A stretch of 64,000 nucleotides of DNA from Streptomyces sp. DH-12. GTDB taxonomy: Bacteria; Actinomycetota; Actinomycetes; Streptomycetales; Streptomycetaceae. Positions 39,825 through 47,075 of this stretch are shown here, piece after piece (the stretch's first letter is position 1; each line of letters opens with the position of its first letter). The notes beneath the pieces were generated by a model. It searched no databases. It worked only from the letters and a program-made list of their open reading frames with translations, and was not told the origin of the DNA. The translations under genes and the position numbers were made by a program. The stretch spans positions 5,059,001 through 5,123,000 of the forward strand of contig NZ_PPFB01000001.1 in the NCBI RefSeq assembly GCF_002899455.1, in the 5' to 3' direction.

Positions 39825-39897
39825 GGGGCTATAGCTCAGTTGGTAGAGCGCCTGCATGGCATGCAGGAGGTCAGGAGTTCAATTCTCCTTAGCTCCA
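39825..39897 (+). tRNA. tRNA-Ala (anticodon GGC)
   Basis: A 73-nt cloverleaf: acceptor GGGGCTA/TAGCTCC with the G3:U70 pair that identifies tRNA-Ala, D-arm GCTCAGTTGGTAGAGC, anticodon stem CCTGC/GCAGG with loop ATGGCAT (anticodon GGC), T-arm with GTTCAAT. CCA is not encoded. Confidence 0.97.
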
Positions 39898-39904
39898 CAT
39901 GGTG

Positions 39905-40649: not shown

Positions 40650-40722
40650 GGGGCTATAGCTCAGTTGGTAGAGCGCCTGCATGGCATGCAGGAGGTCAGG
40701 AGTTCAATTCTCCTTAGCTCCA
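40650..40722 (+). tRNA. tRNA-Ala (anticodon GGC), second copy
   Basis: Identical over all 73 nt to the tRNA at 39825-39897, including the G3:U70 pair and GGC anticodon. It has its own promoter-like region and terminator. Confidence 0.97.
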
Positions 40723-40729
40723 CAGAAGT

Positions 40730-43969: not shown

Positions 43970-44039
43970 CCTTGACCTTCGTCCGGTGCGCCGGGGAAGA
44001 GCGTCGCGGCCGGATCCGTCCCTGCGGTACCCTGACCGC

Positions 44040-44078
44040 ATGCGTGCCGTACGCCTTCTGCTTAGCGAGCCGCGCTGA
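44040..44078 (+). CDS. leuS leader peptide (12 aa, MRAVRLLLSEPR)
   Basis: ATG at 44040, three consecutive leucine codons CTT CTG CTT (CTT is rare in this host) and TGA at 44076-44078. TACCCT ends 6 nt before the ATG, so the transcript probably starts at or next to the start codon. An intrinsic terminator follows 48 nt downstream and leuS after that. Ribosome stalling at Leu codons when charged tRNA-Leu is scarce would favour readthrough. Confidence 0.75.
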   Translation: MRAVRLLLSEPR

Positions 44079-44125
44079 TCAGTCCCGACCGCCGGAGTTC
44101 CGGCAGGCCGGAATCGGCGCGGCGT

Positions 44126-44149
44126 CCCCTCCTGTGCGAGGGGTTTTTT
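44126..44149 (+). terminator. Attenuator terminator of leuS
   Basis: CCCCTC (44126-44131) and GAGGGG (44138-44143) form the stem, followed by TTTTTT (44144-44149). A GCCGG/CCGGC hairpin and a related CCGGAAT segment (44091-44115) upstream could form the alternative pairing. Confidence 0.8.
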
Positions 44150-44204
44150 CATTTCCAGGAAGTCGCAGCAGCAGGCAGAGACGATCGATGGAGCTTTGAG
44201 GATC

Positions 44205-47075
44205 ATGAGCGAGACGAACCCCGCAGCCGCGGAGGCCGCGCCGCACCGCTACACGGCCGCCCTGGCCGCCGAGATCGAGGCACGCTGGCAGGACTTCTGG
44301 GACGCCGAGGGGACGTACGCGGCGCCGAACCCGAAGGGTGACCTGGCGGGCGATTCGGAGCTGGTCGCGCGACCCAAGAAGTTCATCATGGACATGTTCC
44401 CGTACCCCTCGGGCGCGGGCCTGCACGTCGGACACCCGCTGGGCTACATCGCCACCGACGTCTACGCCCGCTTCCAGCGCATGACCGGGCACAACGTCCT
44501 GCACACCCTGGGCTTCGACGCCTTCGGCCTGCCCGCCGAGCAGTACGCGGTGCAGACCGGCACGCACCCGCGCGTGTCCACCGAGGCCAACATCAAGAAC
44601 ATGCAGAGCCAGCTGCGCCGGCTGGGCCTGGGCCACGACAAGCGCCGGTCGTTCGCCACGATCGACCCGGACTACTACAAGTGGACCCAGTGGATCTTCC
44701 TGCAGATCTTCAACTCCTGGTACGACCAGGACGCGAAGAAGGCCCGCCCGATCTCCGAGCTGGTCGCGCAGTTCGAGTCCGGTGAGCGTCCGGTCCCCGG
44801 TCACACGCGCCCGTGGAGCGAGCTGACCGAGGCCGAGCGCGCCGACGTGCTGGGCGAGTTCCGCCTGGCCTACGCCTCCGACGCGCCCGTCAACTGGTGC
44901 CCCGGGCTGGGCACCGTGCTGGCCAACGAGGAGGTCACCGCCGACGGCCGCTCCGAGCGCGGCAACTTCCCCGTCTTCAAGGCCAAGCTGCGCCAGTGGA
45001 ACATGCGCATCACGGCCTACGCCGACCGCCTGCTGGACGACCTGGACGCCCTGGACTGGCCCGAGGCGATCAAACTGCAGCAGCGCAACTGGATCGGCCG
45101 CTCCGAGGGCGCCCGCGTCGACTTCCCCATCGACGGCGAGTCCGTCACCGTCTTCACGACCCGTCCCGACACGCTGTTCGGCGCCACCTACATGGTGCTG
45201 GCGCCCGAGCACCCGCTGGTCGAGAAGTTCACCCCGGACGCCTGGCCCGAGGGCACCCACGAGGTGTGGACCGGCGGTCACGCGACGCCCGCCGAGGCCG
45301 TCGCCGCCTACCGCGCCCAGGCCGCCTCGAAGTCCGACGTCGAGCGGCAGGCCGAGGCCAAGGACAAGACCGGCGTCTTCACCGGCGCGTACGCGACCAA
45401 CCCGGTCAACGGGCAGAAGGTGCCCGTCTTCATCGCCGACTACGTCCTGATGGGCTACGGCACCGGCGCGATCATGGCCGTCCCCGGTCACGACTCCCGC
45501 GACTTCGCGTTCGCCCGCGCCTTCGAACTGCCCGTCGTCTGCGTGGTCGAGCCGACCGACGGCCGCGGCACCGACCCGTCGACCTGGGACGACGCCTTCG
45601 TCTCCCACGACGCGAAGATCGTCAACTCCTCCGGCGAGCACGTCTCCCTGGACGGCCTGGGCGTCACCGAGGCCAAGGCGCGCATCACCGAGTGGCTGGA
45701 GCGCGAGGGCCACGGCGAGGGCACCGTCAACTTCCGCCTGCGCGACTGGCTGTTCAGCCGTCAGCGCTACTGGGGCGAGCCCTTCCCGATCGTCTACGAC
45801 GAGGACGGCATCGCCCACGCGCTGCCCGAGTCGATGCTGCCGCTGGAGCTGCCCGAGGTCGAGGACTACAGCCCGCGCACCTTCGACCCGGACGACGCCG
45901 ACACCCAGCCCGAGACGCCGCTGTCGCGCAACGAGGAGTGGGTGAACGTCACCCTGGACCTGGGCGACGGGCCGAAGAAGTACCGGCGCGAGACCAACAC
46001 CATGCCCAACTGGGCCGGTTCCTGCTGGTACGAGCTGCGCTACCTGGACCCGGACAACTCCGAGAAGCTGGTCGACCCCGGGATCGAGCGGTACTGGATG
46101 GGCCCGCGCGAGGGCATGCCGCACGGCGGCGTCGACCTGTACGTCGGCGGCGCCGAACATGCCGTGCTGCACCTGCTGTACGCCCGCTTCTGGTCCAAGG
46201 TGCTGTACGACCTGGGGCACATCTCCTCGGCGGAGCCGTTCCACAAGCTGTTCAACCAGGGCATGATCCAGGCCTACGTCTACCGCGACAGCCGGGGCAT
46301 CGCCGTGCCGGCCGCCGAGGTGGAGGAGCGTGACGGCGGCTACTGGTACCAGGGCGAGCGCGTCACCCGCCTGCTGGGCAAGATGGGCAAGTCCCTGAAG
46401 AACGCGGTCACCCCGGACGAGATCTGCGCCGAGTACGGCGCCGACACGCTGCGCCTGTACGAGATGGCCATGGGCCCGCTGGACGTGTCCCGCCCCTGGG
46501 ACACCCGCGCGGTCGTCGGCCAGTTCCGCCTGCTGCAGCGGCTGTGGCGCAACATCGTCGACGAGACGACCGGCGAGGTGACCGTCGCCGACACCGACGA
46601 CGTCGACGAGGCCACCCTGCGCGCCCTGCACAAGGCCGTCGACGGCGTCCGCGGCGACCTGGAGGGCATGCGCTTCAACACCGCCATCGCCAAGGTCACG
46701 GAGCTGAACAACCACCTGACCAAGCGAGGAGGCCCGCTGCCGCGTCCGGTCGCGGAGTCGCTGGTGCTGCTGATCGCGCCGCTGGCCCCGCACATCGCCG
46801 AGGAGCTGTGGCGCAAGCTGGGTCACACCGACTCCGTGGTGCACCGGGACTTCCCGGTGGCCAACCCGGCGTACGTGGCCGACGAGACCGTCACCTGCGT
46901 GGTGCAGATCAAGGGCAAGGTGAAGGCGCGGCTGGAGGTGTCCCCGGACATCTCCGACGACGAGCTGGAGAAGGCGGCGCTGGCCGACGAGCGGGTGGTC
47001 GCGGCGCTGGACGGCGCCGGGATCCGCAAGGTGATCGTGCGGGCGCCGAAGCTGGTGAACATCGTTCCGGCCTGA
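44205..47075 (+). CDS. leuS: Leucyl-tRNA synthetase (956 aa)
   Basis: Class Ia synthetase with the HIGH-type motif HVGH at H74 ([15 protein letters not shown]) and the KMSKS-type loop KMGKS at K726. The editing CP1 domain contains [20 protein letters not shown] and [20 protein letters not shown]. The length is normal. The ATG at 44205 follows TTGAGGAT. Expression is probably set by the upstream leader peptide and terminator. Confidence 0.98.

Follow-up and report, generated by a model that had tools for sequence, protein, structure and literature searches.

A widespread leader upstream of leuS in Streptomyces sp. DH-12: an apparently leaderless leader peptide, a stop-codon hairpin and a terminator in a probable attenuator

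The window analyzed here, a 64,000-nucleotide stretch of the Streptomyces sp. DH-12 genome, contains leuS preceded by a compact leader region (Table 1). Six nucleotides (GACCGC) separate a -10 box from the ATG of a 12-codon open reading frame, which is closed by a stop codon. About 47 bases beyond that stop lies an intrinsic terminator with a 6-bp stem free of mismatches. A preliminary description of this DNA had pointed to a TACCCT box 6 nt before the leader ATG, which proved exact to the base, and to a leader with CTT CTG CTT followed by a short perfect stem, six T and leuS, all of which are present. It had missed a 10-bp hairpin, here called H, located between the leader and the terminator. 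Two terminator-like sites were detected in the 1.1 kb examined, vs. 0.5 expected. Elsewhere in the window, two tRNA-Ala (GGC) genes (39825-39898 and 40650-40723) share a strand, are separated by about 0.8 kb and received equal model scores.

Table 1. Positions within the window of leuS and of the elements upstream of it.
Feature	Position	Strand	Remarks
-10 box of the leader promoter, TACCCT	44028..44033	+	TAnnnT 6-7 nt 5' of the start in 161/161 leaders
Leader open reading frame, MRAVRLLLSEPR	44040..44078	+	probably leaderless, transcript beginning at the ATG or adjacent to it
Regulatory Leu codons, CTT CTG CTT	44055..44063	+	last codon CTT in 156/161 leaders
H, 5' arm, GCCGCGCTGA	44069..44078	+	final 10 nt of the leader including the stop codon; pairs with 44114-44123
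H, 3' arm, TCGGCGCGGC	44114..44123	+	2 nt 5' of the terminator
Intrinsic terminator hairpin, CCCCTC-CTGTGC-GAGGGG	44126..44143	+	arms 44126-44131 and 44138-44143
Terminator T tract, six T	44144..44149	+	sequence
leuS, leucyl-tRNA synthetase	44205..47075	+	ATG at 44205

Nearly every genome of the genus (99 of 101) and of the family (57 of 61) carried the DNA block, and many of its alignments started at the -10 box (around 44022). We then considered 182 leuS upstream regions, all mutually different, and counted as a leader any short open reading frame with a run of Leu codons after a TAnnnT motif, permitting 4-9 nt between motif and start. Such a leader, which places Leu codons ahead of the leucyl-tRNA synthetase gene, was found in 161 of the 182 regions. 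The distance from TAnnnT to the start was 6 nt in 147 of these leaders and 7 nt in the other 14. Given its presence in nearly all genus and family genomes and the fixed spacing in 161 of 182 regions, the leader block is not a product of chance.

The same leaders speak to how translation begins. A tetramer resembling a Shine-Dalgarno (SD) motif preceded the leader start in none of the 161 cases, vs. 139 of 161 for leuS itself. The fixed spacing and the absent SD-like motif both agree with a leaderless start, as the preliminary description had proposed, and RNA-seq of an identical leader in S. lividans lends this further support (PMC8079986). The leader of Streptomyces sp. DH-12 is thus probably leaderless as well. 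That the leader is spurious, with a transcript starting further upstream, seems scarcely credible: the -35 consensus is indeed absent (mean best match to TTGACA 2.2 of 6, vs. 2.5 in a shifted control, 161 leaders), but the -10 spacing is invariant across the 161 leaders and the identical S. lividans leader has been reported as leaderless.

The structures downstream of the leader were conserved to a similar extent. A strict pattern of a stem followed by at least four T matched the terminator in 135 of 161 leaders, rising to 157 of 161 with a relaxed stem pattern that did not require the T run. All 10 pairs of H were retained in 148 of 161 leaders and nine of 10 in a further nine (at least 9/10 in 157 of 161). 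The two arms of H were separated by 10 to 55 bases, and the gap between H and the terminator was mostly 1-3 bases. Covariation had been suggested in the preliminary description as a check on the leader, and pairs in H and in the terminator do covary: compensatory changes on both sides occurred at two positions in each (60-sequence alignment), where shuffles led us to expect 0.4. This support is modest because the sequence hardly varies. Extending H into the 5' arm of the terminator was considered and rejected, as the two bases flanking H vary with no consistent pairing by eye. Also by eye, the Leu codon run could possibly pair with the 3' arm of the terminator, and the terminator 5' arm (CCTCC) could possibly pair with the leuS SD sequence.

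In addition to the leader and leaderless start, the earlier proposal had called this locus a variation of trp-type control. We assessed this by constrained folding of 156 leuS leaders in five ribosome states; these included a ribosome positioned on the first, the second or the last Leu codon and one positioned on the stop codon. Bases covered by the ribosome were masked, and we recorded whether the 5' arm of the terminator was free ahead of the synthesis of the 3' arm. The model treats folding as an equilibrium with a fixed ribosome footprint and ignores kinetics, NusA, NusG and Rho. As a positive control, the E. coli trp leader behaved as a switch, with the 5' arm 17% free when the ribosome was stalled at the Trp codons and 97% free when it was at the stop. 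In the leuS leaders the 5' arm was on average 84-97% free with a stalled ribosome and 65% free with the ribosome at the stop, and predicted terminator formation averaged 0.92-0.99 at every ribosome position. No conserved, mutually exclusive antiterminator sharing bases with the terminator was found across the 156 folded leaders, by a measure that moves between 0.17 and 0.97 for E. coli trp. H and the terminator have no bases in common and do not compete.

A classical trp-type attenuator, whose base-sharing antiterminator escaped our simple folding model, is therefore a reading to which we assign very little weight. It can appeal to the antiterminator and terminator hairpins that Seliverstov et al. 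named for leuS in two Streptomyces species (2005; PMC1262725) and to the mutually exclusive hairpins drawn by the authors of the Mycobacterium tuberculosis (Mtb) ilvB1 study (PMC13236596). Set against these is the failure of the leuS leaders to toggle by a metric that does so for E. coli trp. In addition, the stretch separating the arms of H spans 10 to 55 nt and in some leaders is a mere 10 nt, which leaves the terminator arm no conserved partner other than H. Since H adjoins the terminator with no shared bases and no mutually exclusive antiterminator was found, trp-type control in the strict sense is not shown. What stands of the original claim is the leader, the leaderless start and the intrinsic terminator, and the leuS attenuator is trp-type in a broad sense only.

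In the folding model, H forms only if the ribosome has not yet reached it, which makes H the element in these leaders that could report the position of the ribosome. Transcriptional pause sites typically have a hairpin located some 10 bases behind a U or C that precedes a G. H together with GUCCCCUCCU-G would fit this layout.

On balance, this region probably works as an attenuator of leuS transcription that is ribosome-mediated and has a leaderless leader peptide. Its parts are all conserved and in order, with the intrinsic terminator between leader and gene, and the identical S. lividans leader is listed both as leaderless and as having a terminator. RNA polymerase would start at the leader ATG or within 1-2 bases of it, and a 70S ribosome would load directly on the 5' end. 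With charged tRNA-Leu plentiful, the ribosome would reach the stop codon and keep H open, and transcription would end at the terminator. With charged tRNA-Leu scarce, it would wait on CTT CTG CTT, H would form ahead of it, and more polymerases would enter leuS. H may hinder the folding of the terminator, or may hinder the polymerase in some other way; alternatively, its main role may be that of a pause hairpin coordinating the polymerase with the ribosome. That leuS responds to leucine, and in which direction, we infer from this arrangement. Our literature search returned no leucine-response data for a leuS of this kind.

Counted against the attenuator are the missing base-sharing antiterminator and a result from S. 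coelicolor ilvB, where changes to the leader codons had no effect, as cited in PMC1262725. The lack of competition between H and the terminator, together with the same ilvB result, lends itself to a different account, in which leuS is controlled independently of stalling at Leu codons: H would be a constitutive pause or processing hairpin, or one bound by a factor, and the terminator would set a fixed basal level. Streptomyces ilvB shares the same layout of a stop-codon hairpin adjoining the terminator. We consider this account unlikely, for the Leu run is kept in the leaders and their last Leu codon is the rare CTT in 156 of 161. Moreover, a related element before a citramalate-synthase-like gene carries a leader with Ile, Val and Leu codons, and the Mtb ilvB1 leader does depend on its regulatory codons, with replacement of LVVI by AAAA abolishing induction of a reporter (PMC13236596).

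To assess how far the element extends, we built a covariance model from 60 leuS leader sequences. It detected one significant copy in this genome and, across the class, had matches in 129 of 296 genomes; elsewhere in the phylum matches were few (17 of 198 genomes, the 198 including drawn genus and class genomes). The stronger matches were upstream of leuS across many families, and weaker ones lay upstream of leuA, leuC, ilvB and the citramalate-synthase-like gene. The last of these, whose identity was read from the protein sequence, was seen in family f17 (L225-L229 and L242), where the leader is MPSQVLIIVRRAG or close to it. This leader has its own stop-codon hairpin with a terminator directly after it. 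Leaders with Leu runs resembling the LEU element were also seen before leuC, encoding 3-isopropylmalate dehydratase, at three loci (L236, L239 and L243), besides those before leuA. One genome (G354) holds two LeuS genes of different type (L232 and L233), each with a leuS-type leader, and only one of the two genes is restricted to CTG. No Rfam family covers the leuS element. On the leuS strand we found neither a match to a T-box riboswitch nor any Rfam family at its gathering score, and a single sub-threshold Rfam match on the opposite strand was dismissed as chance. This known element proves to be widespread: in many families of Actinomycetes it governs leucyl-tRNA synthetase, or is built to do so.

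The use of leucine codons offers a further perspective on leader and gene. CTT, the last Leu codon of nearly all leaders, is rare in this genome: among 223 background genes it accounts for 1.4% of the Leu codons, vs. 61% for CTG and 36% for CTC. Within leuS, all 77 Leu codons are CTG and none is CTC; a single TTG that was counted belongs to an upstream start and not to the leuS start. Under the background usage such a composition has a chance of about 2.5e-17. The codon bias of leuS is real, and CTG-only leuS is usual in the genus. High expression was considered as its cause and rejected, since the CTG fraction is 0.48 in EF-Tu and 0.51 in EF-G, with EF-Tu, EF-G, valS, metS and ileS together spanning 0.48-0.75; in leuA it is 0.84.

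Whether this bias is tied to the leader is less clear. In an initial set of 30 genomes, leuS contained 0-7 CTC codons where the leader bore CTT (19 genomes), 8-29 where there was no leader (eight genomes) and 15-20 where the leader was CTC-only (three genomes, one with an added TTG). Twenty further genomes brought exceptions in both directions, and the difference there was not significant (p 0.09 and 0.07). One leuS (L348, genome G278) has no CTC among 89 Leu codons and no leuS leader was found upstream of it; L233 and L238 are also exceptions. The link between codon bias and leader is therefore suggestive only.

In the theory of Elf and Ehrenberg, the codons used in leaders are the ones read by whichever tRNA is first to become uncharged (PMC1183508). 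We can imagine, though only tentatively and with more doubt than belief, that the codons are divided between leader and gene. The leader would stall on CTT, read by a tRNA-Leu that presumably also reads CTC, and leuS would be confined to CTG so that leucyl-tRNA synthetase is still made when that tRNA is uncharged, with the attenuator acting through the non-competing hairpin adjoining the terminator. If true, selective tRNA charging would here have shaped an attenuator and its gene alike, in a natural setting. With a leader that bears CTT and a leuS that uses CTG exclusively, Streptomyces allows this theory to be examined by synonymous recoding.

The preliminary description had suggested that the locus would be a neat variation of trp-type control, and this claim to novelty does not survive comparison with earlier work. 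Seliverstov et al. (2005; PMC1262725) had already predicted classical attenuators of leuS, consisting of a leader peptide, an antiterminator and a terminator, for S. avermitilis and S. coelicolor. The 2021 RNA-seq reannotation of S. lividans lists leuL2, with the same peptide, before leuS as “transcribed leaderless”, with a hairpin and uridines after it (PMC8079986). The leuL2-leuS locus of S. lividans TK24 differs from ours in no substantive way and is its ortholog. The RNA-seq study also reported leaderless starts for four other kinds of S. lividans leader, namely leuA, trp, met and thr (PMC8079986). Leaderless polycysteine open reading frames act as attenuators in mycobacteria (Canestrari et al., 2020, as cited in PMC13236596). 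Because of these precedents, the leuS attenuator is already known and is not a new variation.

Other known systems resemble the leuS element in part. The mycobacterial polycysteine attenuators likewise have a short leaderless open reading frame with a run of the controlling codon, but they serve cysteine operons and are described, as cited in PMC13236596, as translation attenuation. The Mtb ilvB1NC attenuator shares a short leader open reading frame with branched-chain codons and an intrinsic terminator; it differs in controlling a biosynthetic operon rather than a tRNA synthetase, and in the mutually exclusive hairpins proposed for it (PMC13236596). The LEU element of leuA also has a Leu-rich leader with a hairpin, and the model matches before leuA and leuC, which were weak, are of this type. 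That element is described as lacking an obvious terminator and as having its run of Leu codons paired with the SD sequence of the gene (PMC1262725), whereas the leuS element ends in a terminator. A pseudoknot likewise belongs to the LEU element.

The E. coli trp attenuator also combines a leader peptide containing the controlling codons with an intrinsic terminator, but its 2:3 antiterminator shares bases with the terminator, and such an antiterminator was not found in the leuS leaders. Translation of the E. coli trp leader is SD-dependent, whereas the leuS leaders have no SD-like motif. In the leuS leaders the conserved stop-codon hairpin adjoins the terminator but is not in competition with it, so the textbook model, with its competing antiterminator, may not apply to this group of actinobacterial attenuators.
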